32,408 nt of DNA from a virus: the IMG/VR virus record IMGVR_UViG_3300024901_000015, positions 1-32,408 of that record; one strand, given 5' to 3'. The notes under the pieces were generated by a model. The model searched no databases, had not been told where the DNA came from, and saw nothing but the letters and a program-made list of their open reading frames with translations. How positions within the stretch are numbered: the stretch's first letter is position 1; each line of letters opens with the position of its first letter. Position numbers and translations under genes: made by a program. Shown one piece after another: positions 11,621 to 32,408 of the stretch.

Positions 11621-11634
11621 AATGTATGGGCAAT

Positions 11635-11655: not shown

Positions 11656-11741
11656 ATGGTGAATTGGTAAACAAGACCAGTGCTCAGAGCCAGAAATGAA
11701 AAAATATCAAAAATAGTCGCATACATTTTAAGTTTCTTAGA

Positions 11742-13106: not shown

Positions 13107-13107
13107 A

Positions 13108-13632: not shown

Positions 13633-13670
13633 GTTGGTTTGCTCCAATATAGGGGTCAGCACACAAACAC

Positions 13671-13695
13671 AAAAAGCCCGCATAACGGGCTTTTT
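13671..13695 (-). terminator. bidirectional rho-independent terminator
   Basis: A 10-bp stem AAAAAGCCCG/CGGGCTTTTT with a 5-base loop, carrying T-runs on both strands. It lies between the 183-residue head gene and the decoration-like gene. Confidence 0.78.
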
Positions 13696-13713
13696 TAATT
13701 TGCATACTAGGTC

Positions 13714-14265: not shown

Positions 14266-14287
14266 GATTTGTCTCCGATTAAATTGA

Positions 14288-14312
14288 GAATCGGGGCACC
14301 TGGCCCCGATTC
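14288..14312. repeat. strong hairpin after the capsid gene
   Basis: GAATCGGGG and CCCCGATTC form a 9-bp inverted repeat with a 7-base loop just after the capsid stop. Neither side has a clear T-run, so it is not a classical terminator; it may stabilise the 3' end of the capsid message. Confidence 0.55.
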
Positions 14313-14317
14313 ATCAA

Positions 14318-15544: not shown

Positions 15545-15572
15545 GTTGATTCCTTTCATTAAGAGCGGACAT

Positions 15573-15597
15573 AAAAAAACCCGCCAGTGGCGGGTTT
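15573..15597 (-). terminator. rho-independent terminator before the capsid gene
   Basis: AAACCCGCC-ACT-GGCGGGTTT stem on the - strand followed by a run of T (complement of 15573-15579). It lies between the protease and capsid genes. Confidence 0.76.
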
Positions 15598-15617
15598 GTC
15601 ACAAAACGCAGGAGCGT

Positions 15618-17619: not shown

Positions 17620-19295
17620 AGCGCCACAAATCCCTGTTCAATGTTGTTTGATTCACCTTCACCATCCAGCGCACGCCCGACAGCCATCATCATGGCAACG
17701 GGGCCATCAATCTTGTTTTCTTTTTTCTCTTTTGTCGGGTGGCGCAAACCGCTAAATTTTGATTCACGCATCACCACGTTGCTGACCATCCAAGTCATGA
17801 CCGGGTTACCGTCATGCACCAGATCACCAGTTAACACCAAGTTTTCAATCTCGATCACTGGCAAAGTGAAGTTGCTTGATGTTTGGTTGATCTCAACCAT
17901 TGGCAAGCCATCCTCTAGCAGCTTATTGGCAAAATATGCCGCAAATTTGCGGTCGTAACCGATGGCCTGCATGTCAAACCTGCCAGCGTATTCGCGCATA
18001 TCGGCTGCAATAATGTCGAAGTCGGTGGCGTTACCCTCGTTCACTTGCAGATAATCTTGATGGCCCCAGTTATAAAGATGCCGATTCTCTGGCATGTTTA
18101 CTTGGTATTCATTCAGGTAGAACCTAAAAAACACGTAATACTTAGCGCCCCGCTTGAAAACCAGCACCAAAGCGGCAATGTCCGATTTTTCCGCAAGGTC
18201 GAGACCAGCCCAACATTGCTCACCGGCAAAGTCATCGAGATTCAAAGACTCATTGCCGCAGCGCTTCCAGTCATCGACTGAAAGCCATTTTTCACCAGCA
18301 GCCAGCCAGATATTGAGCCGCTTTGTTTTAAAGTTTGGCAGCTCGCTTTGCTGGCGCTTGGCTTTATCAGCCATTGTCTTGAGGCTATCCAGGTAAACAG
18401 ACACACCCAAGTTTGGGTTGGCCTTGGCCCACTCTGTTTCGTCATCCCATTTTTCTGGATCATCTACCGTGTAAATGATGACTAGCAGCTCATCGTCATC
18501 AAACACACCATCAAGCACTTTTTCAGCATATTGATGCTGCGCAAAACCGAAGCTGGCAAGGTCAAAACCCGCCGTTGTAATCTGCCACAGCAACCATTGC
18601 TTACGAGCGCCGGTGCCAGATTTGATGACGTCATAAATCTCGCTATTGGGATGGGCGTGAACCTCATCCAAAATCGCGCCATGCGGGTTTAAACCATCAA
18701 GGCTTTTACTATCGCGCCCCAGCGGCTTAAATGTATCTGCGCGGCCAGGCTCTGGGTTAAACAGCTCATCACGGCGGATGCCAACGCTGTTACGCAAAGC
18801 CGGGCTGGCTTGCACCATGCGGATGGCCTCAGCATGGGTGATGCGCGCCTGCTCCATCTTTGTGGCAGCCGTGTAAATCTCGGCACCACCCTCGCCATCA
18901 AACAGGTACAAATACAACCCGATGCCAGAAAGCTTGGTGCTTTTGCCGTTTTTGCGCGGCACCTCTTCCCAAACCTCACGAAAGCGGCGGGTGCCATCTG
19001 CGCGCATCCATCCAAAAGCAAGTGCAATCCAGAATTGCTGCCAGGGCGCCAGCTCGAATTGCTGGCCAGCCCACTCGCCTTTGGAGTGACGATAAAACAG
19101 GAATGACTCAAGGGCATGCTGCGCATGCGCCTCAGAAAAATAAAGGCCACGTAAGTGGCCTGTTTTCATGTCTTTGTAATGTCTCTCAACTGCTTGCCGG
19201 GTTCGGTGGCAAACGATCTGCTTGCCGGATACTACATCTACCCCGTATTGATTCCAGTCAAAGCTTAAAACTGGATCACCGCTAGTGGTTGCCAT
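17616..19295 (-). CDS. terL: terminase large subunit
   Basis: 559 residues. The ATPase Walker A is PRKNGKST (residues 113-120), Walker B GAILDE (206-211), and a C-terminal RNase H-like nuclease starts at CWAGLDLAEKSD with a likely metal-binding Asp366. 'FREVWEEVPRKNGKS' and 'AGLDLAEKSDIAAL' place it in the Terminase_1/HK97-like group that often cuts at cos sites. It pumps DNA into the prohead together with the small subunit. It overlaps both neighbours (14 bp with the small subunit, 4 bp with the portal). Confidence 0.95.
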   Translation of the reverse strand: MATTSGDPVLSFDWNQYGVDVVSGKQIVCHRTRQAVERHYKDMKTGHLRGLYFSEAHAQHALESFLFYRHSKGEWAGQQFELAPWQQFWIALAFGWMRADGTRRFREVWEEVPRKNGKSTKLSGIGLYLYLFDGEGGAEIYTAATKMEQARITHAEAIRMVQASPALRNSVGIRRDELFNPEPGRADTFKPLGRDSKSLDGLNPHGAILDEVHAHPNSEIYDVIKSGTGARKQWLLWQITTAGFDLASFGFAQHQYAEKVLDGVFDDDELLVIIYTVDDPEKWDDETEWAKANPNLGVSVYLDSLKTMADKAKRQQSELPNFKTKRLNIWLAAGEKWLSVDDWKRCGNESLNLDDFAGEQCWAGLDLAEKSDIAALVLVFKRGAKYYVFFRFYLNEYQVNMPENRHLYNWGHQDYLQVNEGNATDFDIIAADMREYAGRFDMQAIGYDRKFAAYFANKLLEDGLPMVEINQTSSNFTLPVIEIENLVLTGDLVHDGNPVMTWMVSNVVMRESKFSGLRHPTKEKKENKIDGPVAMMMAVGRALDGEGESNNIEQGFVAL

Positions 19296-24041: not shown

Positions 24042-24484
24042 TCATCAACCGCAATTTCTGAGACTTCAAGGCTTAAATTCAAAGCCGTGGTAAGCAACTC
24101 AACTATCTGGGCGTCAAACTCTTTTGCTTCAGCCGAGGTTATCTTACGATCTTGATAAATCGCCTTCAATTTTGCGGAAACGCTGCCCAATTTATCGGAC
24201 AAATCAAGCAGGCTATCAAACAAACCATCGCCATTTGATTGGTTTAAATCTGGCTTTTTGGCGACCATATAACCCAAGTCATCAGCCATCGCCTTCAAAA
24301 TCGCGGGGCGCCCCGTAATGCGCTGGATGCGGTTGGCAGTTGCTAAACTCAAGCGATGCGAATCAACGCCAGGATCAACCTGCTTGTTTAGCACATTCGG
24401 ACTCATATCTAGCTCAGCAGCCAGCTTTTTAATGCCGTACTCATGGGCCAAATTAAACGCCGCCAGCTCAATATCGCATGCCAT
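24038..24484 (-). CDS. CII-family phage regulator
   Basis: 148 residues. 'FNLAHEYGIKKLAAELDMSPNVLNKQVDPGVDSHRLSLATANRIQRITGRPAILKAMADDLGY' is the pattern of the phage regulatory CII/CP76 family (PF06892 as I recall): an HTH-like start, 'S-P-x-V-L-x-x-K', 'H-x-L-S-L' and 'T-G-R-x-x-x-L-x-A-M-A'. The second half is Ser/Leu/Lys-rich and helical, perhaps oligomerising. It sits where lambda has cII (after cro, before replication genes). It probably acts in the lysis-lysogeny choice. Confidence 0.78.
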   Translation of the reverse strand: MACDIELAAFNLAHEYGIKKLAAELDMSPNVLNKQVDPGVDSHRLSLATANRIQRITGRPAILKAMADDLGYMVAKKPDLNQSNGDGLFDSLLDLSDKLGSVSAKLKAIYQDRKITSAEAKEFDAQIVELLTTALNLSLEVSEIAVDE

Positions 24485-24502
24485 AAAAAACCCTTAAAAA
24501 AT

Positions 24503-24573
24503 ACGGCTAAAACTTAATAATTAAGCCGTGTTTTATATTAATAAACAGTTAGATAATGAATTAACTTAATTCA
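24503..24573. promoter_or_regulatory. palindromes upstream of the CII-like gene
   Basis: Two AT-rich palindromes precede the CII-like gene: a perfect 17-bp TGAATTAA-C-TTAATTCA at 24557-24573, and CTTAAT-A-ATTAAG at 24513-24525 nested in an ACGGCT/AGCCGT inverted repeat (24503-24529). They differ from the ATAAC/GTTAT operators of the immunity region, so a different regulator may bind here. Confidence 0.4.
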
Positions 24574-24597
24574 CTTTATCAACTATGAAAAATGAGC

Positions 24598-24633
24598 AAA
24601 AAACACCCGCCAGCGCGATTAACGCCAGCGGGT
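24598..24633 (-). terminator. rho-independent terminator after the tRNA
   Basis: CCCGC...GCGGG stem (24606-24632) with an inner GCG/CGC pairing, followed on the - strand by TTTTTT (24598-24603). It would end the short leftward transcript of the Cro-like gene and tRNA before the CII-like gene. Confidence 0.65.
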
Positions 24634-24698
24634 ATAGGGAGCAAGCTTTGGAGAAGCTATTTGCACACAGGGCCGCTGCATGCACCGGTGAAACACGG

Positions 24699-24771
24699 TT
24701 GCGAGAGCAGGACTTGAACCTACAACCTCCGGGGTATGAACCCGGCGCGCTGCCAATTGCGCCATCTCGCG
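24699..24771 (-). tRNA. tRNA-Met(CAU), initiator-like
   Basis: 73 nt fold as a full cloverleaf: 7-bp acceptor, U8, 4-bp D stem with an 8-base loop holding GG, 5-bp anticodon stem, CAU anticodon, 5-base variable arm, and a T arm with loop TTCAAGT. Initiator hallmarks are visible: a C1-A72 mismatch at the acceptor end and three G-C pairs (GGG/CCC) next to the anticodon loop. Pair 11-24 is C-G, elongator-like. The gene continues as CCG, not CCA, so CCA would have to be added. It lies 6 bases after the Cro-like stop codon, so it is probably cut from that transcript. Confidence 0.88.
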
Positions 24772-24777
24772 ATTCAT

Positions 24778-25002
24778 TTATGCGGCCTCATCATCAATAT
24801 GGCGCGGCGCATATACATCATCAAATGAAACAGCCACACCCTGCTCTTTCGCATATGCAATCAGATTGCGAGCAATTTCTGGGGAAACCTCAATTTGCCC
24901 ACTCTCTATTTTTGAAACATTGGGCTGAGATACGCCGAGCTTATCCGCAATATCTTGCTGGCTAAGCTTGAGGTCTAAACGGATTCTTTGGAAATTATTC
25001 AT
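24778..25002 (-). CDS. Cro-like HTH regulator
   Basis: 74 residues from ATG at 25002 (MNNFQRIRLDLKLSQQDIADKLGVSQPNVSKIESGQIEVSPEIARNLIAYAKEQGV). An XRE-type helix-turn-helix is clear (QQDIADKLGVSQPNVSKIESG). Position equals lambda cro: divergent from the repressor gene, first in the leftward transcript, followed by a CII-like gene and replication genes. The -10 element sits only about 7 bases before the start codon, so the message may be almost leaderless. Whether it or the 25078-25491 protein maintains lysogeny is inferred from layout. Confidence 0.82.
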   Translation of the reverse strand: MNNFQRIRLDLKLSQQDIADKLGVSQPNVSKIESGQIEVSPEIARNLIAYAKEQGVAVSFDDVYAPRHIDDEAA

Positions 25003-25009
25003 GACTCGA

Positions 25010-25085
25010 ATAATAACCAATAGTTATCAAATAATCAATAACCCATAGTAATTATGCGAAAGGGTAAAATATAACTCATGGTTAT
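25010..25085. promoter_or_regulatory. oR-like operators and leftward promoter (pR-like)
   Basis: Three 15-bp palindromes with half-sites ATAAC/GTTAT and a 5-bp centre: 25013-25027 (perfect), 25038-25052 (one half degenerate, GTAAT) and 25071-25085 (perfect). A leftward promoter is seen on the - strand: -35 TTGATT at 25038-25033 and -10 TATTAT at 25015-25010, 17 bp apart. The first operator overlaps the -10 and fills the spacer; the third overlaps the start codon of the repressor gene. I could not place the rightward promoter with confidence. Confidence 0.75.
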
Positions 25086-25491
25086 AGACACTAAAATGGC
25101 GTTTGCCACGCTGTTAAAACAGCTCTGTAATGAAAAAGACCTGAAAGAACGAGGCCGCCAGGCTTTTATTGTCAGGCTGCTGAAAAGCCACGGCTTTGTG
25201 ATAAGTCAGCCAGCGGTTAAAAAATGGTTTGATGGAGAATCGTTACCTGATACCGACAAAGCATTAGTGCTTGCGAATTATTTCAAAATTAGCGTCACCG
25301 ATCTATTATCTGGCATAAATAAAACTAACGAATCAAAAAATTTTCACCAATTTAATCAGTCACCGGTTACTTACAATTGGCCATTTGGTGACAAAATTTC
25401 CCCTTCACAATACAATTCACTATCAACCAATCAAAAAGAATTGGTGATCGCTCGAATACTTACCTACCTAGACGATAACCAAATCAAGTAA
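25078..25491 (+). CDS. CI-like phage repressor, short form
   Basis: 137 residues. The HTH lies near the N-terminus (LKERGRQAFIVRLLKSHGFVISQPAVKKWFDGESLPDTDKALVLANYFKISVTDLLSG), a pattern common in phage repressors. The C-terminal part (KNFHQFNQSPVTYNWPFGDKISPSQYNSLSTNQKELVIARILTYLDDNQ) is short and shows no LexA/S24 self-cleavage motif. It is divergent from the Cro-like gene and flanked by matching operator triplets on both sides, as lambda cI is. The start codon lies inside an operator (ATAACTC-ATG-GTTAT overlap), suggesting tight self-repression. An ATG seven codons in is an alternative start. Confidence 0.75.
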   Translation: MVIDTKMAFATLLKQLCNEKDLKERGRQAFIVRLLKSHGFVISQPAVKKWFDGESLPDTDKALVLANYFKISVTDLLSGINKTNESKNFHQFNQSPVTYNWPFGDKISPSQYNSLSTNQKELVIARILTYLDDNQIK

Positions 25492-25502
25492 AAGGGGCTT
25501 TA

Positions 25503-26147
25503 ATGGCTTTGGTTGAATGCAAAGAGTGCAAACATCAGGTCAGCAGCAAGGCTAAAACATGCCCGAACTGCGGCTTTAAAATTTCAACCTCTTTTGGATT
25601 TTTGGGTTGGATTTTAATTATATTTAGTACTATGTTTGTTTTTTCTTTGCTCGGCAATAAGCCCCAAAAAAACAATGATTCGAGCGAAATTGATGCGCCA
25701 GCTCAGGACAATATAACAGCCCCCGTCATCAATTCATGGCAATACTCAGACTCAACAGATTCGATGGCCAGCGGAATAGTAAAAACCGCAACTATCAGAA
25801 GTGATAATGTAATTGAACTACATGCACCCTACTCCGGGGGAACATTTGGGAATCTGGTTATAAGAAAACATCCTCGATGGGGGTTAGATGTTATGTTCAC
25901 AATTAACCAAGGGCAGTTAATGTGTAGTTATAACGACTGCAAATTAAACATCAGGTTTGATGAACAAAAATATAGAACCTTCACAGCCACCGAGCCTGAC
26001 GATCATAGTAGCGATACACTATTTATCCGAGACAAAGAGAATTTTATTAAAAATCTGAAAAAATCAAAGAAAGTGACGATTGAAGCAACGTTTTACAGAA
26101 ACGGCTCTAACGGCTTTAAATTCAATACAGAAAATTTAGATTTTTAA
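25503..26147 (+). CDS. zinc-ribbon membrane protein, possible lysogenic conversion gene
   Basis: 214 residues. An N-terminal zinc ribbon with two CxxC knuckles (CKECKHQVSSKAKTCPNCGF, residues 6-25) is followed by one membrane segment (about 29-51, FGFLGWILIIFSTMFVFSLLG) and a polar C-terminal domain of about 160 residues. The C-terminal domain begins with an Asn/Asp/Ser-rich linker. It follows the repressor gene by 11 bp and is probably co-expressed in the lysogen. Genes in this position often block superinfection or alter the host; no specific activity is visible. Confidence 0.65.
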   Translation: MALVECKECKHQVSSKAKTCPNCGFKISTSFGFLGWILIIFSTMFVFSLLGNKPQKNNDSSEIDAPAQDNITAPVINSWQYSDSTDSMASGIVKTATIRSDNVIELHAPYSGGTFGNLVIRKHPRWGLDVMFTINQGQLMCSYNDCKLNIRFDEQKYRTFTATEPDDHSSDTLFIRDKENFIKNLKKSKKVTIEATFYRNGSNGFKFNTENLDF

Positions 26148-26159
26148 TAGGTCAGTTTA

Positions 26160-26633
26160 ATGCTTCAATTTATTGCATTTTTATTTTGCATTTTTGTGAT
26201 TTATCTTGGATTTTCAGAGATATTTAATTTCTTCGCACCAAAGAAAAAGAACGCTGTTACCGCCGATACAAGTCAAAAAACCATTTCAAAACAGCCATTT
26301 TTATGGGAAAAAAATAAATATACCCATTCAGGATTTGAGGTTGTAGGCGAATCCTACTATCAAAACAACATTGAAAAAATAAGATATAGAAATACTATCT
26401 TAGCTACATTGATCCCAGAAAAAAACAATATACACGATCCACATGCAGTAAGAGTTGATGTTGACGGTCGCACTGTTGGATATTTGAGCCGCGATTGCAA
26501 TCAACAATTTAGAGCTTTGTTGCTTAATGCAGGCCTTTCAAGTACAGAACCTACTAATTGCTTTGCATCTGTAATCGGCGGACATACCAAAAGTGGTAAT
26601 ACCACAAGTTACGGTATCGTTCTTGATTTTTAG
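26160..26633 (+). CDS. membrane-anchored HIRAN-domain protein
   Basis: 157 residues. One N-terminal membrane segment (LQFIAFLFCIFVIYLGFSEIFNFF, about 2-25), a short basic linker, then a HIRAN-like domain: YTHSGFEVVGESYYQNNIEKIRYRNTILATLIPEKNNIHDPHAVRVDVDGRTVGYLSRDCNQQFRALL. The 'G-E-S-x-Y-Q', 'N-x-H-D-P-x-A-V-R-V' and 'V-G-Y-L-S-R' motifs are typical. HIRAN domains bind DNA 3' ends or damaged DNA in several nucleases and helicases; here it would sit at the membrane. It ends the repressor operon just before a strong terminator. Confidence 0.72.
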   Translation: MLQFIAFLFCIFVIYLGFSEIFNFFAPKKKNAVTADTSQKTISKQPFLWEKNKYTHSGFEVVGESYYQNNIEKIRYRNTILATLIPEKNNIHDPHAVRVDVDGRTVGYLSRDCNQQFRALLLNAGLSSTEPTNCFASVIGGHTKSGNTTSYGIVLDF

Positions 26634-26650
26634 ATAAGCACTCTTTAAAT

Positions 26651-26672
26651 AACCCGCTACGGCGGGTTTTTT
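26651..26672 (+). terminator. rho-independent terminator ending the repressor operon
   Basis: AACCCGC-TACG-GCGGGTT with a T-run (26667-26672) right after the HIRAN gene. It separates the repressor operon from the pL-like promoter. Confidence 0.82.
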
Positions 26673-26695
26673 ATTATCTGTCTCTTTCACAAAAT

Positions 26696-26768
26696 ACAAC
26701 ACTCGGTTATTAAATTTACAAAATAATAACTATCGGTTATTGACATATTGATAACCAATAGTTATATT
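26696..26768 (+). promoter_or_regulatory. oL-like operators with pL-like promoter
   Basis: A second triplet of the same operator: 26696-26710 (ACAAC/GTTAT, one mismatch), 26726-26740 and 26751-26765 (both perfect ATAAC-N5-GTTAT; the last is identical to 25013-25027, including its centre). A sigma70 promoter is embedded: -35 TTGACA at 26740-26745, 17-bp spacer, -10 TATATT at 26763-26768. The second operator ends on the -35 box and the third fills the spacer and touches the -10, so repressor binding should block transcription of the whole rightward operon, including the DGR. Confidence 0.82.
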
Positions 26769-26800
26769 TGCATCACACAACGCAATCGGAGTGTGAATGC

Positions 26801-26992
26801 ATGGCAACAAACTCACCAGATCGAGGTTACCTACAAATGGCATTCAATCGCTGTTTGTTACGCAAACACTTCAACTCACTGGATGACGCTTTAAAAAGCC
26901 CCGCCCTCGCCCTCTGCCTGCGTCGTGTAGCCAGCAATCTGGCTAAACCTATCAAACAACCGAGCCATATGCGTGGCGCGATTAACGACTAA
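26801..26992 (+). CDS. hypothetical early protein (63 aa), first gene of the pL-like operon
   Basis: 63 residues from ATG at 26801, with GGAG about 10 bases upstream. The sequence is basic: MATNSPDRGYLQMAFNRCLL...ALALCLRRVASNLAKPIKQ. It is mostly helical with no membrane segment. It is the first gene after the promoter at 26740-26768, the place lambda-like phages use for an N-type antiterminator. It is about N-sized, but I see no N-like arginine-rich motif. No family recognised. Confidence 0.6.
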   Translation: MATNSPDRGYLQMAFNRCLLRKHFNSLDDALKSPALALCLRRVASNLAKPIKQPSHMRGAIND

Positions 26993-27002
26993 GGGGCACT
27001 AA

Positions 27003-27368
27003 ATGAGCATATCCACGAAAGTACCAGAACTGCAAGAAGGCGAAATCTATATTGGCGCCATTATCAAAAAGGACGGCACTGGTCACCACATCATCCTGTT
27101 GCCAGGTGACAAAGATGACGGCAATTGGCAATCCGCAATGGATTGGGCCAAAGAAAAAGGCGGCGACCTGCCTAACCGTGTAGAGCAATCCTTGCTGTTC
27201 GCTGACCATAAAGATGAATTCAAAGAGGATTGGTATTGGAGCAATACCACGCACGCTAAAGATTCAGAGTGGGCTTGGGGCCAGCGCTTCGACCTTGGCA
27301 GCCAGAGCTACGGTCACAAGAGCTACGACGGTTGCCGCGCCCGCGCTGTCCGCAGATTAGAAATTTAG
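27003..27368 (+). CDS. DGR variable protein 1, DUF1566/C-type-lectin-like
   Basis: 121 residues, 11 bp after the previous stop. 'GEIYIGAIIKKDGTGHHIILLPGDKDDGNWQSAMDWAKEKGGDLPNRVEQSLLFADHKDEFKEDWYWSNTTHAKDSEWAW...RARAVRRLEI' is the DUF1566-like version of the C-type lectin fold used by many DGR target proteins. The C-terminal residues 87-119 are encoded by VR1, with 10 positions corresponding to AAY codons in the template. No signal peptide or membrane segment. The invariant core is near identical to variable protein 3, so the two arose by duplication. The partner that carries it to a surface is unknown. Confidence 0.86.
   Translation: MSISTKVPELQEGEIYIGAIIKKDGTGHHIILLPGDKDDGNWQSAMDWAKEKGGDLPNRVEQSLLFADHKDEFKEDWYWSNTTHAKDSEWAWGQRFDLGSQSYGHKSYDGCRARAVRRLEI
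27261..27357 (+). repeat. DGR variable repeat VR1
   Basis: 97 bp aligned without gaps to the TR at 31481-31577. There are 16 differences: 15 at TR adenines and one at a TR thymine (TR 31499 T, here 27279 G). The last 25 bases (GC-rich, encoding CRARAVR) are identical to the TR, consistent with the initiation-of-mutagenic-homing end. Confidence 0.93.
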
Positions 27369-27383
27369 TCATTTATTTATTTA
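27369..27383 (+). repeat. 15-bp element after VR1 (TCATTTA-N-TTATTTA)
   Basis: A copy of an AT-rich 15-mer that follows each of the three VRs (also 30463-30477 and 30945-30959), differing only in the middle base. It lies just past the stop codon and is absent after the TR. Confidence 0.6.
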
Positions 27384-27396
27384 AAGGGGCGTAACT

Positions 27397-27708
27397 ATGT
27401 GCGGCGATAGCGGAATTGACACCATCATCATCACCAACCCACAAAGGGTGGCACGTCAGCAACAATCTACCCTGCCAGGCGGCATCTATACGCCAAGCAT
27501 GAATGATATTGATCTGGCCGACAGTTACGTGCCATTTGATGCATCAGGCGCCGACAACATCAGCACCGAAAACATGCTTGGCAACACAGCGGCATTCATC
27601 CTGATTGTCGGCTTTATCTTTAGTCTGGTATTGCTCGGCAGCATGATCGCCACCGGCAATGCAATCCCATCAATGCAGGGGGTTAGCTATGTTCAAAAAG
27701 GCCGCTAA
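27397..27708 (+). CDS. hypothetical membrane protein (103 aa)
   Basis: 103 residues with an AAAGGGG ribosome site. A polar N-terminal part (about 1-62: TLPGGIYTPSMNDIDLADSYVPFDASGADNIST) is followed by one membrane segment (about 65-84, AAFILIVGFIFSLVLLGSMI). The cysteine at residue 2 is not preceded by a signal peptide, so it is not a lipoprotein. It overlaps the next gene by 20 bp. No family recognised; it belongs to a run of small membrane proteins between DGR targets 1 and 2. Confidence 0.6.
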   Translation: MCGDSGIDTIIITNPQRVARQQQSTLPGGIYTPSMNDIDLADSYVPFDASGADNISTENMLGNTAAFILIVGFIFSLVLLGSMIATGNAIPSMQGVSYVQKGR

Positions 27709-27895
27709 GTCATGCGTAATCCTAATCATCGGCGCATGCATTGGCGCAGCGCTAGTTCTCTCAAAAGAGCCGCAGCCGGTGCAGGTCACTACATCGTCAC
27801 AAGCAAAATGTGCCATCAAGCACGGGCAAGACACGCACATCACAAAGTGCCAAATCTTGCGCACCGACTTGGCTTACATCGAATACCAGTGGTGA
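27689..27895 (+). CDS. small membrane or secreted protein (68 aa)
   Basis: 68 residues from ATG at 27689, with a GGGGG ribosome site; a longer upstream reading overlaps the previous gene more. One N-terminal hydrophobic segment (AAKSCVILIIGACIGAALVLS, about 5-25) is followed by about 40 polar residues with two cysteines (QAKCAIKHGQDTHITKCQIL) that could form a disulfide outside the membrane. No family recognised. Confidence 0.55.
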   Translation: MFKKAAKSCVILIIGACIGAALVLSKEPQPVQVTTSSQAKCAIKHGQDTHITKCQILRTDLAYIEYQW

Positions 27896-27900
27896 TCGCC

Positions 27901-28023
27901 ATGAGACAAGAATTTAACCAGATGCGCTGGGAGACCAGAAAACACAACGCCAAAGCGGTTATCGGCCTTGCCATTGTGGTGGCGCTGTATGGCTTGGTGG
28001 GATATTTGGAGCATGCTGCATGA
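27901..28023 (+). CDS. small membrane protein (40 aa)
   Basis: 40 residues, MRQEFNQMRWETRKHNAKAV then one membrane segment (IGLAIVVALYGLVGYL). The next gene starts in its stop codon (ATGA overlap at 28020-28023), which supports it being translated. No family recognised; a longer upstream reading in this frame runs through the preceding gene and is rejected. Confidence 0.5.
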   Translation: MRQEFNQMRWETRKHNAKAVIGLAIVVALYGLVGYLEHAA

Positions 28024-28184
28024 ATTTATTTTTTGTTCTTGCAGTGGCTTATAGCTCATTAATCATCGGCTATTCAATTCATCAAATGAAATATAAACCA
28101 GCATTCAGCATAGTGGCTGCGGCTACTTTTGTTTATTTCATCATCCCATTTGGTCTGTTTTATTTTGCCGGGGTGTATGCATGA
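28020..28184 (+). CDS. small two-pass membrane protein (54 aa)
   Basis: 54 residues. Two hydrophobic segments (about 2-19, NLFFVLAVAYSSLIIGYS, and 29-53, FSIVAAATFVYFIIPFGLFYFAGV) are joined by a short basic loop (HQMKYKP). Start and stop both overlap the neighbours by 4 bp (ATGA at each end), a strong sign of translational coupling. No family recognised. Confidence 0.6.
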   Translation: MNLFFVLAVAYSSLIIGYSIHQMKYKPAFSIVAAATFVYFIIPFGLFYFAGVYA

Positions 28185-28375
28185 ACCTCGAATGCCTAGA
28201 AATAGCCAACCAGTGCAACCAGGTAGCCGCAACCCTTACTGGAACCGCAGCATTCATGCGCTCAATCGGTGACAACGCCGCCATGAGCGAATACATGCAT
28301 AGAGCCATGGACTGGACGAACCATGCCGACCTGATGATGCGTGAAGCCTTTAGTGAAGGTCTGCCAAATGGGTAA
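28181..28375 (+). CDS. hypothetical helical protein (64 aa)
   Basis: 64 residues, helical and acidic: NLECLEIANQCNQVAATLTG...DNAAMSEYMHRAMDWTNHADLMMREAF. It starts in the stop of the preceding gene and overlaps the next by 8 bp. No membrane segment or recognised family. Confidence 0.6.
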   Translation: MNLECLEIANQCNQVAATLTGTAAFMRSIGDNAAMSEYMHRAMDWTNHADLMMREAFSEGLPNG

Positions 28376-28685
28376 ACATCAAGAGATATTGCAGTTGCTA
28401 AAGGTCTGGCAAGAGCACGGCATAAAATCCAAAGCCATGTTTGAGGCACTTTGTGCCGTTTTCCCAAACTCGCAAGATTCTGCCATCCATGAGGAATATT
28501 GGCGCCTTTATACCAACTACACCGCCATGGTGGCCGCCAAAGTGGGCGATGAGTATGGATGGCTTGAGTGGTATGCATGGGAAAACAACTTTGGCAAACG
28601 TGGCCACAATGCTGGCCCTAAAAACAACAGCAAGCCGATCAAGTCATTAAAAGACCTGATCTGGCTGATCTATGTAGAGGCTTAA
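28368..28685 (+). CDS. hypothetical protein with possible DNA-binding helices (105 aa)
   Basis: 105 residues from ATG at 28368; an earlier ATG at 28341 lies deep in the preceding gene. The sequence is helical and Trp/Tyr-rich (QEILQLLKVWQEHGIKSKAMFEALCAVFPN...EEYWRLYTNYTAMV...WLEWYAWENNFGKRG), with a basic end (NAGPKNNSKPIKSLKDLIWLIYVEA). No recognised family. Confidence 0.6.
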   Translation: MGKHQEILQLLKVWQEHGIKSKAMFEALCAVFPNSQDSAIHEEYWRLYTNYTAMVAAKVGDEYGWLEWYAWENNFGKRGHNAGPKNNSKPIKSLKDLIWLIYVEA

Positions 28686-28687
28686 CC

Positions 28688-29140
28688 ATGCGTAAACAGG
28701 GCCGAAAAATCAAACACCATAGCCGCAGCGTGCCCATGATTTTGCACCGTGAAGGTGAAATGCTGGGCGTTGAGGTGATGAGCGAAGCCGCCGCCCTCAT
28801 GGCTATCAAATATGGTGTCATGCAAAAGCAGCACTTCGACAAGCTGGTCGAGTTAAACAACATTGCCAAAGTGGCCGGCCAAGTTAAGTCAGGCAGCACG
28901 ACTCACTTCCAGCTACAGCTTGAGGCCATCTTGCAAAGCGTATTTCAGCGCTATACCAAAACGGGGCGCCTTGGCGTCAATGCTGATGAGCGTAAGCAAA
29001 TCCCCATCCTGATGGCACTTAATGAAGCCTATTGGAAAGGTCAGACAACGACCTTTTATAACCAGTGCGGCGCCGAGGTGAATGCATTTTATAAAGAGAA
29101 GTTTGCATTAAAGCCATTGGCAGAGCTTGAGGCTGCATGA
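28688..29140 (+). CDS. hypothetical protein (150 aa)
   Basis: 150 residues. A basic N-terminus (MRKQGRKIKHHSRSVP) is followed by mixed helices: REGEMLGVEVMSEAAALMAIKYGVMQKQHFDKLVELNNIAKVAGQVKSGSTTHFQLQLEAILQSVFQRY...PILMALNEAYWKGQTTTFYNQCGAEVNAFYKEKF. I recall similar unannotated proteins in other phage early operons but cannot name a family. It starts two bases after the previous stop and overlaps the next gene by 4 bp. Confidence 0.6.
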   Translation: MRKQGRKIKHHSRSVPMILHREGEMLGVEVMSEAAALMAIKYGVMQKQHFDKLVELNNIAKVAGQVKSGSTTHFQLQLEAILQSVFQRYTKTGRLGVNADERKQIPILMALNEAYWKGQTTTFYNQCGAEVNAFYKEKFALKPLAELEAA

Positions 29141-29385
29141 TTGCTGGGGTCAACTATCTGATTCGCATACGCCGTGATCGTTTAAACCCGCTCACAGGTC
29201 GCCGCATGTATCGCGTAGCCGGTTGCGAGCGCAACCATTACCCAGCATTAAAACGAGTTTGGCTATACAACCAACCGCAATGGCAATTCACCATAGTGCT
29301 GACCAAGCCAGTAAAGGTTGGAATTTTTATAAATCCACGTAAAGGGATTTGGCTAAATAAAGGTGATTCAAATGCTTCAGCTTAG
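29137..29385 (+). CDS. hypothetical basic protein (82 aa)
   Basis: 82 residues, strongly basic with many Arg and Tyr: GVNYLIRIRRDRLNPLTGRRMYRVAGCERNHYPALKRVWLY. Short beta strands are likely (QWQFTIVLTKPVKVGIFINP). ATGA overlap with the previous gene. No family recognised; nucleic-acid binding is possible from charge alone. Confidence 0.58.
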   Translation: MIAGVNYLIRIRRDRLNPLTGRRMYRVAGCERNHYPALKRVWLYNQPQWQFTIVLTKPVKVGIFINPRKGIWLNKGDSNASA

Positions 29386-29647
29386 TTTTGGCGAGAGTGT
29401 AATTGAAACGGTAGTGATAACACCCAGAAAAGAAATGCCTTTTGAAGTGTTTGCTAAATGTCATGAGCTATCAACACTTATAGAGAAATTGGATCGTGTC
29501 GATGAAAACCATGTTTTGTGGGATGAAAACAAAACCTACGACTACTGCAAGCAACTTGCTGAAGTTGAATATTCAGCCCTTCAAAACGATTGGTTTGTAA
29601 TGAATATGGAATTACCAAAAGCATTAATTGAAAGCTGGATCAAATGA
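29372..29647 (+). CDS. hypothetical acidic protein (91 aa)
   Basis: 91 residues from ATG at 29372, with AAAGGTG about 8 bases upstream; a GTG three codons earlier is an alternative. Acidic and helical at the end (EMPFEVFAKCHELSTLIEKLD...TYDYCKQLAEVEYSALQNDWF). It overlaps the gene before it by 14 bp and the one after by 4 bp. No family recognised. Confidence 0.58.
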   Translation: MLQLSFGESVIETVVITPRKEMPFEVFAKCHELSTLIEKLDRVDENHVLWDENKTYDYCKQLAEVEYSALQNDWFVMNMELPKALIESWIK

Positions 29648-30090
29648 TAGAAAACAACTACACCCTATACACCCCGCTTGGCGGCATGTTTGTGTCACCA
29701 AACGTAGATGACATGAAACGCATCATCAAGACAGAAGCCGACAGACTAGAAAAGCCAGAGCGCTTGCTTTACCTGGCTGGGCCCATGTCTGGCATTGCTG
29801 AGTTTAATCACCCTGCCTTTCATGCCGCAGCCGCAAAACTACGCGCGCAGGGCTATCAGGTAGTCAACCCTGCCGAGCTCAACCCAGATACCAGCAAAAC
29901 ATGGGATCAGTGCATGCGGCGCGATCTGCAAGCACTGGCCGACTGCAACAGCCTTGCCCTGCTGCCAGGCTGGGAGCTAAGCAAAGGCGCCCGCCTTGAA
30001 TATGACGTGGCGCAGGCTCTGGGCATGACAATTATTTTTCTTGAGGCATATCCTCAACTTTTAACTACTCAGCCAGCGCAAGCGGCTTAA
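29644..30090 (+). CDS. DUF4406 protein, nucleoside deoxyribosyltransferase-like fold
   Basis: 148 residues. From about 40 on: RLLYLAGPMSGIAEFNHPAFHAAAAKLRAQGYQVVNPAELNPDTSKTWDQCMRRDLQALADCNSLALLPGWELSKGARLEYDVAQALGMTIIFL. The 'L-A-G-P-M-S-G', 'F-N-x-P-x-F-x-x-A-A', 'V-V-N-P-A' and 'L-P-G-W-x-x-S-x-G-A-x-x-E' motifs are those of DUF4406, related to nucleoside 2-deoxyribosyltransferases. It may act on modified or salvaged nucleosides in infected cells; the exact substrate is not known. It is common in phage early regions. Confidence 0.85.
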   Translation: MIENNYTLYTPLGGMFVSPNVDDMKRIIKTEADRLEKPERLLYLAGPMSGIAEFNHPAFHAAAAKLRAQGYQVVNPAELNPDTSKTWDQCMRRDLQALADCNSLALLPGWELSKGARLEYDVAQALGMTIIFLEAYPQLLTTQPAQAA

Positions 30091-30104
30091 TGAAGGAAAG
30101 AACC

Positions 30105-30470
30105 ATGCAAATTCTATTGCCGGAACTTAATGAAGGTGAAATCAACGCTGGCTTGATGATGGGTCTTGATGGAAAACCAACTCATTGGGTGATTTTATTG
30201 CCGGGCGACAAAGAAGATGGCAACTGGCAAGACGCCACCGACTGGGCGAAAGAGCAAGGCGGTGAACTGCCGACACGCAACGAGCAATCATTGCTGTTTG
30301 CTAACACCAAGCCAGAGTTTAAACGTGACTGGTATTGGAGCGGTGAAACCCATGCCGAAAATTCAGAGTGGGCTTGGTACCAGTACTTCAACGATGGCTA
30401 CCAGCTCACCAGTCGCAAGAGCCGCGGCTATTGCCGCGCCCGCGCTGTCCGCAGAATCTCAGTCATTTAA
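30105..30470 (+). CDS. DGR variable protein 2, DUF1566/C-type-lectin-like
   Basis: 121 residues from ATG at 30105 (AAGGA 8 bases upstream); an ATG at 30090 overlapping the previous stop is an alternative. It has the same layout as variable protein 1 but is more diverged: GEINAGLMMGLDGKPTHWVILLPGDKEDGNWQDATDWAKEQGGELPTRNEQSLLFANTKPEFKRDWYWSGETHAENSEWAW...CRARAVRRISVI. VR2 encodes residues 86 to about 117. Its extra C-terminal residues (ISVI) differ from the LEI ending of proteins 1 and 3. No export signal. Confidence 0.86.
   Translation: MQILLPELNEGEINAGLMMGLDGKPTHWVILLPGDKEDGNWQDATDWAKEQGGELPTRNEQSLLFANTKPEFKRDWYWSGETHAENSEWAWYQYFNDGYQLTSRKSRGYCRARAVRRISVI
30361..30455 (+). repeat. DGR variable repeat VR2
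   Basis: 95 bp aligned without gaps to TR 31482-31576. All 13 differences fall at TR adenines, including one in the His codon (CAC to CGC). The GC-rich 3' end is identical to the TR. Confidence 0.94.
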
Positions 30471-30477
30471 TTATTTA
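30463..30477 (+). repeat. 15-bp element after VR2 (TCATTTA-N-TTATTTA)
   Basis: The second copy, starting 7 bases after VR2 ends and spanning the stop codon. The protein's C-terminal codons differ from those of the other two targets, yet this element is kept. Confidence 0.6.
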
Positions 30478-30497
30478 GTCATTTAAAGGCTTAAATC

Positions 30498-30944
30498 ATG
30501 ACCACTATTGAAATCATTGAACAAAAACAGGACGAAATTAATCGCCTGATCGCCAGCCTCAAGGCTTTTAACTCAGCCTTTCCGCGCACCATTAACAAAC
30601 CAGAACTGAAAGCCGGTGAAATCTACATTGGCACGGTAATAAATGCAGATGGCACCGGCCATCACGCCATTTTATTGCCAGGCGATAAGGATGACGGAAA
30701 TTGGCAATCTGCGATGGACTGGGCTAAAGAAAAAGGCGGCGATCTGCCCAACCGCATCGAGCAGGCAATGTTATTTGCCAACCATAAGGGCGAGTTTCAA
30801 GAGGATGTTTATTGGAGCAATACAACCCACCACAAAGAGTCAGAGTGGGCTTGGTGCCAGACCTTCGACAGTGGCTACCAGAGCAGCTATCACAAGAGCG
30901 ACGACTGTTGCCGCGCCCGCGCTGTCCGCAGATTAGAAATTTAA
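30498..30944 (+). CDS. DGR variable protein 3, DUF1566/C-type-lectin-like with N-terminal helix
   Basis: 148 residues. An extra N-terminal helix, probably coiled coil (MTTIEIIEQKQDEINRLIAS, then LKAFNSAF), precedes the DUF1566-like domain (GEIYIGTVINADGTGHHAILLPGDKDDGNWQSAMDWAKEKGGDLPNRIEQAMLFANHKGEFQEDVYWSNTTHHKESEWAW). VR3 starts at residue 115. The coiled coil could allow trimerisation or docking to a partner; proteins 1 and 2 lack it. The core is near identical to protein 1. It directly precedes avd. Confidence 0.87.
   Translation: MTTIEIIEQKQDEINRLIASLKAFNSAFPRTINKPELKAGEIYIGTVINADGTGHHAILLPGDKDDGNWQSAMDWAKEKGGDLPNRIEQAMLFANHKGEFQEDVYWSNTTHHKESEWAWCQTFDSGYQSSYHKSDDCCRARAVRRLEI
30840..30933 (+). 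repeat. DGR variable repeat VR3
   Basis: 94 bp aligned without gaps to TR 31484-31577. All 12 differences fall at TR adenines. Just upstream, 30837-30839 (GAG) differs from TR GAT at a T, which marks the 5' limit of homology. Confidence 0.94.
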
Positions 30945-30959
30945 TCATTTAGTTATTTA
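30945..30959 (+). repeat. 15-bp element after VR3 (TCATTTA-N-TTATTTA)
   Basis: The third copy, 11 bases after VR3 ends, directly before the avd start codon. VR1 and VR3 also share the preceding TAGAAATTTA. Confidence 0.6.
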
Positions 30960-30961
30960 TC

Positions 30962-31312
30962 ATGGCAAATCACACCACCCTGCCCATTTACAAAGTCGCT
31001 TATGACTTGCTCAAGGCTATCGTTGAGATCAGCAAGAACATCCCGCGAGAGTTTAAGCAAAGCATAGGCGGCAAGCTGCGCGATGAATGCGTTGAAATCG
31101 TCACGCTTATTTTCAGGGCAAATGTGTCATCAGATAAAGCCAGGCATCTGGCTAACCTGATTGAACGCCTGCAGGTGTGTGAGTTGCTATTGAGATTGGC
31201 GCGCGATATGCGCCTGATCTCAACCGGGCAATACGCCAAAGCCATTCAGCTAACAGATAGCATCGGGAAACAGGCTACTGGCTGGCGCAAATCCGCATCG
31301 TCCGTTTCATAA
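30962..31312 (+). CDS. avd: DGR accessory variability determinant (Avd)
   Basis: 116 residues, a basic four-helix-bundle type protein: LPIYKVAYDLLKAIVEISKNIPREFKQSIGGKLRDECVEIVTLIFRAN, then IERLQVCELLLRLARDMRLISTGQYAKAIQLTDSIGKQATGWRKS. 'Y-K-x-x-Y-D-L-L', 'I-P-R-E-F-K-x-x-x-G' and the closing 'I-G-K-Q-x-x-G-W' are the hallmarks of Avd. Avd forms a barrel-shaped pentamer that binds the reverse transcriptase and template RNA and is needed for mutagenic homing. It lies between the third target and the RT, the common DGR order. Confidence 0.93.
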   Translation: MANHTTLPIYKVAYDLLKAIVEISKNIPREFKQSIGGKLRDECVEIVTLIFRANVSSDKARHLANLIERLQVCELLLRLARDMRLISTGQYAKAIQLTDSIGKQATGWRKSASSVS

Positions 31313-31325
31313 AGGTCACGGCCCT

Positions 31326-32408
31326 ATGACTGCACGATTAAATAATCTGGTTTTACCGCTGGCTCAAAAGGCCACCGCCATGCGCATCACAGATACCGCT
31401 GATAGCAATCAGGCAAGGTCTGGCGCAGTTTCTTTGCTGATCGGCAATAGCCTTCGGCATAGCGACGTAGATAGTAAAACGATTCAGAGTGGGCTTGGTA
31501 CCAGAACTTCAACAATGGCAACCAGAACAACAATCACAAGAGCAACAACAATTGCCGCGCCCGCGCTGTCCGCAGATCATTACAACAGCTTTACGTTTGA
31601 GCAGCTGGTACAAGCGTACCTTGATTGCAGAAAAAACAAACGCAATACTGATAGCGCTCTGGCTTTTGAGGGAAATCTAGAGCGCAATCTATTAGATCTA
31701 TATGCAGAATTGAAATCTGGCGAATACTCACCAGGCAGAAGCATCTGCTTTGTCATCACCAGGCCAAAGCCACGTGAAGTATGGGCAGCTGATTTTCGTG
31801 ATCGGATTGTGCACCACTTGTTTTACAACCATATTTCACCACGGTTTTATGCCACATTTATTGCCGACAGTTGCGCATGCATACCTGGTCGCGGCACGCT
31901 CTATGCCGCTAAGCGGCTAGAGTCAAAAATCAGTAGCACCACAGAAAACTGGTCGAAGCCTTGCCATTACCTTAAATGCGACCTTGCCAACTTCTTTGTG
32001 GCTATCAATAAAAACATACTGCATTCACAACTTGTAAAGCGCATACATGAGCCGTGGTGGCTGTCACTAGCTGAAACAATACTGTTTCATGATCCGCGCC
32101 AAAATTACGAGCTACGCGGTGATGCAGATCGTATCAGCCTAGTGCCAGACCATAAGCGGTTAAATTCGCATGACGCTATGCATGGGCTGCCTATTGGCAA
32201 TTTGAGCAGCCAATTCTTTGCAAACATCTACCTCAACGAGCTAGACCAGTTTATTAAGCATCGTATCGGCGCCAAACATTACATCAGATATGTGGATGAT
32301 TTTGTCATTCTAAATCAATCGCCACAGTGGCTAAATCAAGCTTTGGCGCAAATCAATCAATTCTTGCCAGAAAAGCTGGAAGCGAATTTAAACCCTACCA
32401 AAACAATC
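31326..32408 (+). CDS. DGR reverse transcriptase, partial (runs off the window), with the template repeat inside its ORF
   Basis: 361 codons, open to the window edge. ATG at 31326 has AAAGG about 10 bases upstream, 13 bp after avd. The RT domain begins near residue 85 (HYNSFTFEQLVQAYLDC) and shows DGR-RT motifs: RPKPREVWAADFRDRIVHH, SCACIPGRGT, KCDLANFF with catalytic Asp219, GLPIGNLSSQFFANIYL (IGNLSSQ at 290-296, the DGR form), and YVDD at 322-325 with Asp324/Asp325. Thumb and C-terminus lie beyond the window. Residues 52-84 are encoded by the TR in a different frame. No ATG, GTG or TTG occurs between the TR and TTG 31710, inside the RT domain, so translation must start upstream of or within the TR. 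Confidence 0.93.
   Translation, partial: MTARLNNLVLPLAQKATAMRITDTADSNQARSGAVSLLIGNSLRHSDVDSKTIQSGLGTRTSTMATRTTITRATTIAAPALSADHYNSFTFEQLVQAYLDCRKNKRNTDSALAFEGNLERNLLDLYAELKSGEYSPGRSICFVITRPKPREVWAADFRDRIVHHLFYNHISPRFYATFIADSCACIPGRGTLYAAKRLESKISSTTENWSKPCHYLKCDLANFFVAINKNILHSQLVKRIHEPWWLSLAETILFHDPRQNYELRGDADRISLVPDHKRLNSHDAMHGLPIGNLSSQFFANIYLNELDQFIKHRIGAKHYIRYVDDFVILNQSPQWLNQALAQINQFLPEKLEANLNPTKTI
31481..31577 (+). repeat. DGR template repeat (TR)
   Basis: 97 bp matching VR1, VR2 and VR3. Read in the VR frame it contains ten AAC/AAT codons, the classic layout that gives wide codon diversity under adenine mutagenesis; in that frame it reads on into an unrelated tail. 40 of 41 differences between the TR and the three VRs are at its adenines. 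It lies inside the open reading frame of the RT (residues 52-84), offset by one base from the VR frame, where it encodes a Thr/Ala/Arg-rich linker. Confidence 0.94.

Follow-up and report, generated by a model that had tools for sequence, protein, structure and literature searches.

The regulator genes, the one-strand arm and the DGR cassette

The window, that is, the whole stretch of DNA analysed here, comprises positions 1-32,408 of the IMG/VR record IMGVR_UViG_3300024901_000015 (32,408 nucleotides). It contains divergent genes for a Cro-like and a CI-like regulator, two further genes in the repressor operon, and a one-strand arm that leads into a DGR cassette (Table 1).

Table 1. Regulators, operators, promoters and arm features, in window positions
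Feature	Position	Strand	Evidence and remarks
Cro-like HTH protein, 74 aa	24778-25002	-	Pfam HTH_3 3.2e-11; opens pR-like arm
pR-like promoter TTGATT-17-TATTAT	25010-25038	-	9/12; mirror image of pL via inverted repeat
First operator triplet (oR-like), ATAAC-N5-GTTAT	25013-25027, 25038-25052, 25071-25085		exact, one mismatch, exact
CI-like repressor, 137 aa, HTH	25078-25491	+	PHROG 8 and PHROG 4 repressor matches
Zinc-ribbon protein, repressor operon	25503-26147	+	weak zinc-ribbon Pfam matches below cut-off
HIRAN-domain protein, repressor operon	26160-26633	+	PF08797 8.5e-08
Predicted intrinsic terminator of repressor operon	26651-26668	+	7-pair hairpin with T run; upstream of pL-like promoter
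Second operator triplet (oL-like), ATAAC-N5-GTTAT	26696-26710, 26726-26740, 26751-26765		one mismatch, exact, exact
pL-like promoter TTGACA-17-TATATT	26740-26768	+	11/12
First arm gene, 63 aa	26801-26992	+	no family match
DGR target 1, C-type-lectin-like, 121 aa, remote, near pL	27003-27368	+	VR 27258-27357
Nucleoside 2-deoxyribosyltransferase-like gene	29644-30090	+	PHROG 355 3.7e-39
DGR target 2	30105-30470	+	VR 30357-30456; ORF also readable from 30090
DGR target 3	30498-30944	+	VR 30834-30933
Avd	30962-31312	+	PF22296 bAvd 1.2e-16; PHROG 3206
RT-15 RNA, directly 5' of template repeat	31296-31486	+	RF03018, 164.2 bits vs gathering score 82
DGR reverse transcriptase, partial (record end)	31326-32408	+	PF00078 2e-14; PHROG 1423 1.9e-101
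Template repeat (TR)	31478-31577	+	repeat family D2; A-specific mismatches

The cassette has a DGR-type reverse transcriptase (RT), an Avd protein and C-type-lectin-like targets, and the mismatches between the TR and the VRs are biased to A: they fall on an A of the TR at 15 of 17 positions in target 1, 14 of 17 in target 2 and 12 of 14 in target 3, and of the seven non-A mismatches, six are no more than 6 bases away from a repeat end. The true start of the RT is uncertain because the open frame runs through the RT-15 RNA and the TR. The window stops within the RT, and the position of an integrase downstream is seen in relatives only. The predicted model of target 1 (pLDDT 94) has the C-terminal domain of Lcl as its best PDB match (Foldseek E 1.1e-4, TM 0.67); the Pfam Lcl_C scores remain under the curated cut-off. 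In an alignment, target 3 has an N-terminal extension that targets 1 and 2 lack.

The DGR of BPP-1 (mtd, avd, TR, brt) has the same Avd-TR-RT order and A-specific mutagenesis, and we take its Mtd to share the C-type-lectin fold with the variable domain here. The two RTs are 31% identical. The BPP-1 cassette sits among tail and lysis genes and has one large target, whereas here three small targets lie in a putatively repressor-controlled arm; the RF03022 RNA of BPP-1 follows its TR, whereas the RT-15 RNA precedes the TR here. The named tail and head genes of the window occupy 4194-19295 on the strand opposite to the arm, and the window has no target beside tail or fibre genes in a late region, as BPP-1 has.

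The preliminary description had placed all genes from 26801 to the RT on one strand, with overlaps or short gaps and no visible terminator. All called genes of this stretch are indeed on the plus strand. Neighbouring genes are at most 28 bp apart, except for a gap of 180 bp that follows 27708 and one of 71 bp that follows 28184; small ORFs cover both. The arm is not quite free of terminator-like matches: its only ones on the plus strand are weak hairpins of 6 pairs at 28112 and at 30041, both inside ORFs. The product of the first arm gene had no Pfam or PHROG match, and a pattern search of viral contigs found neither a relative of it nor a phage sharing the gene. Since N-like antiterminators are short and diverse, the missing match weighs little. 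The CII-type sequence TTGC-N6-TTGC (at most one mismatch) was not enriched (68 matches vs 78 expected).

The CI-like protein shows 32-41% identity to repressors from phages of Salmonella, Escherichia and Vibrio, including the 933W type, in alignments that cover 54-66% of it. Its Pfam HTH_3 match lies below the cut-off, and a PDB sequence search gave a single match (E 0.028). Pfam found no S24 peptidase domain in the protein, so RecA-dependent induction cannot be assumed. Among eight repressors of other DGR loci tested, five have an S24 domain (L004, L005, L010, L025 and L046) and three do not (L002, L031 and L083); it is also absent from the repressors of L097 and L098, two loci described below. 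Over the stretch compared, L010 is identical to L105, which comes from TND4EL3; Janthinobacterium sp. PC23-8 (L106) likewise carries a relative. The zinc-ribbon gene presumably occupies the place of rex in lambda. A defence-family search with ten window proteins returned RT matches of a general kind and weak matches of the HIRAN protein. Past the Cro-like gene, the pR-like arm continues on the minus strand with a CII-like protein (PF06892) and DnaB.

Operators and promoters at both ends of the repressor operon

Six copies of ATAAC-N5-GTTAT in two triplets, flanking the repressor operon as oR and oL do in lambda, with a strong promoter under the second triplet, had been the core of the preliminary description, and on all of these points our analysis agrees with it. 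Four copies are exact and two have one mismatch; the triplets bracket the operon (25013-25085 and 26696-26765) and overlap the flanking promoters, the arrangement that marks a lambda-type pL arm.

The clusters exceed chance. With at most one mismatch the motif has 8 matches in the window against 0.89 expected, a count that none of 100 shuffles reached; six of the eight are the two triplets and the remaining two lie at 7022 and 21001. At up to two mismatches there was no clear enrichment in the window (19 matches vs 13.4 expected; 8 of 100 shuffles reached 19). In a motif-free test of all 5-base half-sites with spacers of 3-8, scored for clustering within 2 kb, the best palindrome family of the window consisted of exactly these six sites, with a score of 10 against 8 for the best of 30 whole-window shuffles; when the AT-rich region 24500-26800 alone was shuffled, 4 of 300 shuffles reached the same score. 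Furthermore, the triplets mirror each other: 25013-25055 is an inverted repeat of 26723-26765, with 79% complementarity across 43 nt.

The -35 of the pL-like promoter arises from the right half of the operator at 26726-26740, and its -10 from the right half of that at 26751-26765. This promoter is the top promoter-like match across 24400-32408, a region in which such matches are in total not above shuffles (11 vs 15.2). The same promoter-in-operator design is visible in L002, L004, L025, L031, L036, L040, L097 and L098. Divergent Cro and CI genes, operator triplets flanking the repressor operon, promoters embedded in the operators and an arm leading to integrase are known from lambda; the immunity regions and pL operons of lambda, P22 and 933W share these traits with the window, the integrase being seen in many of its relatives. 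The window differs from them in that its repressor has no S24 domain, no N-like antiterminator was found in it, and its arm bears a DGR.

A search for relatives of the CI-like repressor, made without reference to DGRs, found two, in L097 and L098 (47-48% identity over the HTH). Both loci have a motif of the ATAAC-N5-GTTAT type before cI, at the place equivalent to the first triplet, and in both it recurs 0.7-0.8 kb downstream of the cI end, where two copies, 25-26 bp apart, enclose a TTGACA. None of the five loci recruited by the Cro-like protein, which are weak relatives (41-52% over short stretches), has the motif. The match of repressor and operator in two independent phages independently supports the lambda-like reading of the switch, and comparison with relatives largely supports the preliminary interpretation.

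Recurrence of the layout in related loci

Our starting set held 127 loci whose RT has 60% identity or more: 80 confirmed stretches (the best of 182), a further 7, 39 contributed by a later search (best 80 of 198), and the window. Removal of 5 loci of less than 6 kb and of another 5 in which no called gene covered the start of the RT gave a set of 117, which includes near-duplicates; the 122 loci with gene calls form 109 clusters. Genes were called with a codon-based caller, in close agreement with stretches of three annotated records and the window. Tiling of longest ORFs, tried as a measure of strandedness, was dropped because in GC-rich loci it called spurious ORFs on the minus strand.

The start of the arm is visible in 66 of the 117 loci. 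A plus-strand HTH gene lies at the arm start or within 2.5 kb in 45 of these 66, as judged with an HTH profile that was built from cI/Cro candidates of the same loci and is not independent of them; 21 of the 45 also have a minus-strand HTH gene opposite, and the other 21 arms have no plus-strand HTH gene near the start. An integrase lies further along the same run in 69 of the 117 loci, and downstream on the opposite strand in another 10. Where cI was detected (41 loci, window included), the locus's own cro/cI palindrome recurs downstream of cI above all controls, sampled from 20 other loci, in 14 cases; in the other 27 the second cluster failed to exceed all the controls, among them five loci (L015, L017, L028, L083 and L084) where no such cluster was found. 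The operator sequences differ between loci that share the layout.

Burkholderia phage Magia and Pseudomonas phages Haboob, phPA-G, Cruim01 and LPPA56, with RTs 62-68% identical to that of the window, likewise have a repressor gene right at the start of the arm or close to it (assigned from position and size in LPPA56, which lacks an annotation for it) and the DGR between repressor and integrase. They differ in that a second operator cluster was not found or was not distinct from controls. Targets are 162-220 aa in four of the five phages, 120-154 aa in Magia and 121-148 aa in the window.

In 28 of the 122 loci a further target lies far upstream of the cassette, usually near cI and sometimes as the first gene of the arm; this remote target is a new point of the present analysis. 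By a crude hydropathy test, which is not a signal-peptide predictor, 19 of 229 targets have a hydrophobic 19-residue stretch and one has a hydrophobic N-terminus. The loci L070 and L074 differ at 14 of 75 A-sites in the VRs, at 1 of 225 non-A VR sites and at 4 of 8633 sites elsewhere, a pattern which we read as a sign of DGR activity in the clade. It comes from 13 near-identical pairs, of which four are informative; the other nine have identical VRs and are identical or nearly so elsewhere, so that many of them may be one isolate in two collections.

Control of the cassette and role of the targets

We propose that the window probably belongs to a temperate phage with a lambda-type switch, that its DGR lies in a repressor-controlled pL arm, and that mutagenesis is timed by the switch; binding, repression and timing are what we infer from the layout and its relatives. 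The CI-like protein would bind both clusters of ATAAC-N5-GTTAT sites that flank its operon. On the left set, it would block the Cro-side promoter and adjust the output of its own; on the right set, it would block the strong pL-like promoter. That promoter starts the arm, which holds the pL-near target, the two targets beside Avd, the template RNA with RT-15, and the RT; many relatives have an integrase beyond. As long as the repressor persists, transcription of the targets, the template RNA and the RT would be low; after infection, or once repression is lost, it would extend over the entire arm. Such whole-arm control would restrict mutagenesis mainly to the lytic or establishment phase.

Compatible with this control is the reading that the targets, though produced early, serve later as parts of the virion and belong to an ordinary host-range DGR in an odd place, which we consider quite possible without expecting it. 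The authors of the Magia genome note its DGR and propose adaptation or a change of host range; its early-arm position is not among the points noted in the accessible part of that paper (PMC7883833). On the other hand, the targets are small (median 197 aa, n = 229) and sit away from tail genes in annotated relatives, and a target encoded near pL would be among the first products. Moreover, in seven of eight phages with RTs below 40% identity (the eight chosen from 98 records below 60%), the DGR lies beside baseplate, tail or fibre genes.

It is unlikely, in our judgement, that the DGR is cargo in the pL arm, largely self-expressed from a promoter unseen by a sigma-70 scan and active in the lysogen too, its position reflecting insertability. 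That the DGR is separable from the switch is indicated by L097 and L098, which have the operators and a related repressor but in whose searched DNA (15.8 of 38.8 kb, and all 10.1 kb) nothing matched the RT, Avd or the targets. Of 36 loci tabulated, 12 have terminator-like hairpins outside genes on the way from the presumed oL to the targets, and in three near relatives (L025, L046 and L083) one lies 11-30 bp before an adjacent target. The lambda-like layout proposed in the preliminary description stands and recurs in relatives with different operators, but simple read-through from pL is not universal. Hairpins so near the start codon, however, leave no room for a promoter between them and the target. 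Many Pseudomonas loci have hairpins between or after adjacent targets; these could be DGR target-site structures, as in BPP-1, rather than terminators.

The promoter scan found no site of at least 10/12 within 250 bp before the adjacent target in 104 non-redundant loci, nor in the Avd/RT-15 zone of 109. Its sensitivity is low, since at this cut-off it missed pL itself in 12 of 21 loci with a good oL cluster (found in 9), and chance alone predicts only 0.7 and 1.5 matches for the two scans; a weak, degenerate or activator-dependent internal promoter may therefore exist. Against self-expressed cargo we also count the stretch from pL to the RT in the window, with no plus-strand hairpins beyond the two weak ones inside ORFs, and the recurrence of the arm position across phages with unrelated operators.

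The Bacteroides hankyphage is also temperate with a CI-like repressor, and differs in having a Mu-like genome with the DGR RT at its right end, a tail-fibre target and some activity without induction. In the accessible part of its report, silencing the repressor raised expression of most phage genes and made DGR mutations more marked in capsid DNA; uninduced cultures, too, showed DGR activity (PMC12135933), which favours self-expression. A global DGR survey, in the part accessible, leaves undecided whether turnover differs between types because RT activity is more strongly controlled or because of selection (PMC8144416).

That the palindromes are operators of the Cro-like protein, or of both regulators, and that the CI-like protein is not the lysogenic repressor is very improbable: both proteins have an HTH, and the CI-like one is short and has no peptidase domain, but the operators accompany its relatives in 2 of 2 loci and the weak relatives of the Cro-like protein in 0 of 5, and dual binding is expected in lambda-like switches and would leave the proposed CI control unchanged.

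Phage DGRs are usually read as changers of tail fibres; the DNA here offers a readable candidate for the control that switches one of them on. The position of this DGR in a putatively dormancy-controlled early block, recurrent in relatives, suggests that scrambling is timed with waking and is not aimed at the tail as classically. We put forward, as a tentative and rather doubtful extension, that the DGR clade with the RT-15 RNA may have left the tail-fibre niche to become an early-gene device with small, probably intracellular lectin-fold products, one of them encoded, in some phages, at the beginning of the operon under repressor control or close to it. Each escape from dormancy would then make a fresh variant for early host takeover or counter-defence, and not of a receptor-binding protein. 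If the early-arm position does mean early intracellular targets, many prophages of Pseudomonas and betaproteobacteria would hypermutate such proteins, and the hypermutated protein would in some cases be the first product of the lytic programme.

Putative operators around the repressor operon

The preliminary description had placed the DGR in a lambda-like early arm under repressor control, citing six copies of ATAAC-N5-GTTAT in two triplets that flank the repressor operon. This palindrome family proved to be real: allowing up to one mismatch, the window contains eight matches where 0.89 are expected, a count that no shuffle out of 100 reached, and six of the eight are the reported sites, four of which are exact. 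An untuned search over all half-sites and spacers returned the same six sites as the top family of the window (score 10), the highest score in 30 shuffles being 8; when the AT-rich region was shuffled alone, score 10 was reached in 4 of 300 shuffles. The two triplets are mirror images. As had been proposed, the second overlaps a promoter (pL). The -35 TTGACA and the -10 TATATT of pL arise from the right halves of two successive sites, and the first triplet has the same promoter-operator design on the minus strand, serving the Cro-like gene. The third site of the first triplet spans the initiating ATG of the CI-like repressor gene. A -10-like TAAAAT immediately before this ATG would make the repressor mRNA leaderless.

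Features of the immunity region and the DGR
Feature	Position	Strand	Remark
Terminator-like hairpin	24635-24603		14 pairs, after the tRNA-Met gene
tRNA-Met gene	24697-24771	-	between Cro-like and CII-like genes
Cro-like gene	24778-25002	-	
First operator triplet (oR-like)	25013-25085		
-10-like TAAAAT	25065-25070		
CI-like repressor gene	25078-25491	+	137 aa
Zinc-ribbon and HIRAN-domain genes	25503-26633		
Second operator triplet (oL-like)	26696-26765		
pL	26740-26768	+	17-bp spacer
Target 1 (remote)	27003-27368		
Target 2 (first adjacent)	30105-30470		
Target 3 (second adjacent)	30498-30944		N-terminal extension 30498-30570
AT-rich CATTTA-type repeats	27359-27383, 30453-30485, 30935-30959		after the variable repeats (VRs)
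Avd	30962-31312		
RT-15 RNA	31296-31486		Rfam RF03018, 164 bits (gathering score 82); directly before the template
Template (TR)	31478-31577		

The 32,408-base IMG/VR virus record is linear, and its right end falls inside the DGR reverse transcriptase (RT). Tail, head, portal, terminase, replication, DnaB and CII-like genes occupy the minus strand in the left three quarters, and the gene calls from 25078 onward run in the opposite direction (+), bar one doubtful 41-codon call at 25535. The zinc-ribbon and HIRAN-domain genes follow the repressor, apparently in one operon with it; in lambda, rexA and rexB occupy the corresponding place. Their products are candidates for exclusion or defence proteins expressed in the lysogen, and a defence-family search gave weak matches of the HIRAN protein to a candidate defence family.

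Relatives of the repressor were searched without reference to the DGR. The two found, at L097 and L098 (L-numbers denote loci of relatives), are 47-48% identical over the HTH. In both loci, matches to the motif with no more than one mismatch stand ahead of cI and again, as a pair 25-26 bp apart with TTGACA between the two sites, 0.7-0.8 kb past the end of cI; L097 has one extra match elsewhere, at 12208. Thus, repressor and operator travel together. Since matches to RT, Avd and targets were not detected in the sequence searched at these loci (15.8 of 38.8 kb in one, all 10.1 kb in the other), the DGR looks like cargo separable from the switch. An ATAAC-N5-GTTAT-type site was absent from five loci found via the Cro-like protein, all of them weak relatives.

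Recurrence of the layout in relatives

Relatives of the RT comprised 80 viral-contig loci (the best 80 of 182 confirmed stretches), 7 named phages and 39 bacterial-genome loci of at least 60% identity among the best 80 of 198. With the arm taken as the one-strand run containing the RT, single opposite genes being tolerated, 117 loci were analysable, near-duplicates included. A strand switch is visible at the arm start in 66 of them; a plus-strand HTH gene lies at the switch or at most 2.5 kb away in 45 of the 66, with a minus-strand HTH gene opposite in 21 of those 45, and no plus-strand HTH gene was found near the arm start in 21 of the 66. An integrase lies farther along the same run in 69 of the 117 loci and downstream on the other strand in 10. 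Haboob is annotated in the order cro, cI, DGR, Bet, nuclease, integrase; Magia, Cruim01 and phPA-G are further annotated examples of the layout. Unlike in this clade, the DGR adjoins baseplate, tail or fibre genes in seven of eight phages with distant RTs (picked from 98 records with an RT below 60% identity, all eight being below 40%), and its neighbours are unnamed in the eighth, phiWae15. RTs 43-49% identical to that of the window also occur at L143-L154, in metagenomic bins that represent candidate phyla and other taxa, e.g. Moranbacteria, Nomurabacteria, Omnitrophota, Elusimicrobiota and Caldithrix.

The cro-cI palindrome of each locus was sought downstream of cI, with 20 other sampled loci as controls. 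Its recurrence was above all 20 controls in 14 of 41 loci, was matched by one control in 5, and was not distinguished from controls in 22, 5 of which had no candidate at all. Operator sequences differ greatly among loci and the design is alike, with two sites about 24-25 bp apart and the -35 between them; good examples are L002, L004, L025, L031, L036 and L040, of which L031 fails the cross-locus test.

A target lying upstream of the RT by more than 2.6 kb occurs in 28 of 122 loci, and none was found in the examined sequence of the other 94. In 13 of 14 non-redundant cases with cI and an adjacent target visible, the remote target lies in the half nearer to cI (the exception is L127). It is the first plus-strand gene past the operator cluster in L009, L036, L051 and L064, where only the L036 operators beat all controls and the others were matched by one. 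In L031 a promoter-operator unit stands immediately before it, and it is the second gene of the arm in the window, the third in L010 and the fifth in L025. The 229 targets of non-redundant loci are small, having a median length of 197 aa with quartiles at 158 and 203, and a hydrophobic N-terminus is missing from nearly all of them by a crude hydropathy test. The nearness of the remote target to the switch, together with these two properties, points to the targets being early, possibly intracellular products.

The DGR and its activity

The template matches three VRs, with mismatches on template adenines in 15 of 17, 14 of 17 and 12 of 14 cases. RT-15 RNA was present in all three relatives searched (L004, L005 and L025) and in none of seven control regions searched. 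Among these controls, BPP-1 has a DGR RNA of another family, which follows the template, and BalMu-1 has RT-14. The RT open frame passes through the RT-15 RNA and the template repeat (31296-31577); since no in-frame ATG, GTG or TTG was seen in the stretch from the template to where the conserved RT begins, translation of the RT may begin within or upstream of the template, or from a different start codon.

The high-confidence structure model of target 1 (pLDDT 94) has as its best PDB match, and the sole one below E 0.001, the C-terminal domain of Legionella Lcl (E 1.1e-4, TM 0.67); many of the weaker matches are C-type lectins. An N-terminal extension of some 30-40 residues, which looks like a coiled coil, distinguishes the second adjacent target from targets 1 and 2; the second adjacent targets of L002, L004, L005, L046 and L083 also have it. 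The CATTTA-type element recurs at the same place in L002, L004, L005, L010, L021, L031 and L046, and may be part of the homing signal.

Near-identical pairs show that the DGR clade is active in nature. Between L070 and L074, 14 of 75 VR adenine sites differ, against 1 of 225 other VR sites and 4 of 8,633 sites elsewhere; for L065 and L069 the counts are 32 of 82, 0 of 218 and 8 of 2,595. Nine of the 13 near-identical pairs have no VR difference, and those nine are identical or nearly so throughout.

Transcription of the arm and induction

No promoter-like site scoring at least 10/12 was found within 250 bp ahead of the first adjacent target in 104 non-redundant loci (0.7 expected by chance) or in the Avd/RT-15 zone of 109 loci (1.5 by chance). 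This absence is weak evidence, since the scan misses most pL promoters: among 21 loci whose operator cluster is good, pL itself scores at least 10 in just 9. Of 36 loci tabulated, 12 have terminator-like hairpins outside genes on the stretch from the presumed oL to the targets, which tells against simple read-through from pL. In L025 (7726-7745), L046 (8471-8490) and L083 (10469-10498), such a hairpin ends 11-30 bp short of the first adjacent target's start codon. Since too little room is left for a promoter after them, transcripts probably pass these hairpins, which may be control or attenuation points. The arm of the window has two weak hairpins only, both within ORFs. Hairpins that recur between or after adjacent targets (8633-8649 in L014, L016, L044, L052, L061 and L064; 9323-9338 in L018, L036, L040, L047 and L049) may be DGR target-site structures, not terminators.

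An S24 peptidase domain is present in five of nine DGR-locus repressors (L004, L005, L010, L025 and L046) and absent from those of the window, L002, L031 and L083; the L097 and L098 repressors also lack it. Given this distribution, SOS induction is plausible for part of the clade, and cannot be assumed for the window phage. No account of a DGR placed within a pL-type arm came up in literature searches of open-licence papers or in passages of PMC7883833, PMC8144416 and PMC12135933. The hankyphage, with another genome layout, is a precedent for repressor-linked DGR activity and has DGR activity also without induction (PMC12135933).

Taken together, both the anatomy and the comparison with relatives give good support to placing the DGR in an early arm under repressor control. 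The most likely consequence of this position would be mutagenesis that is silent in the lysogen and active during the lytic phase.
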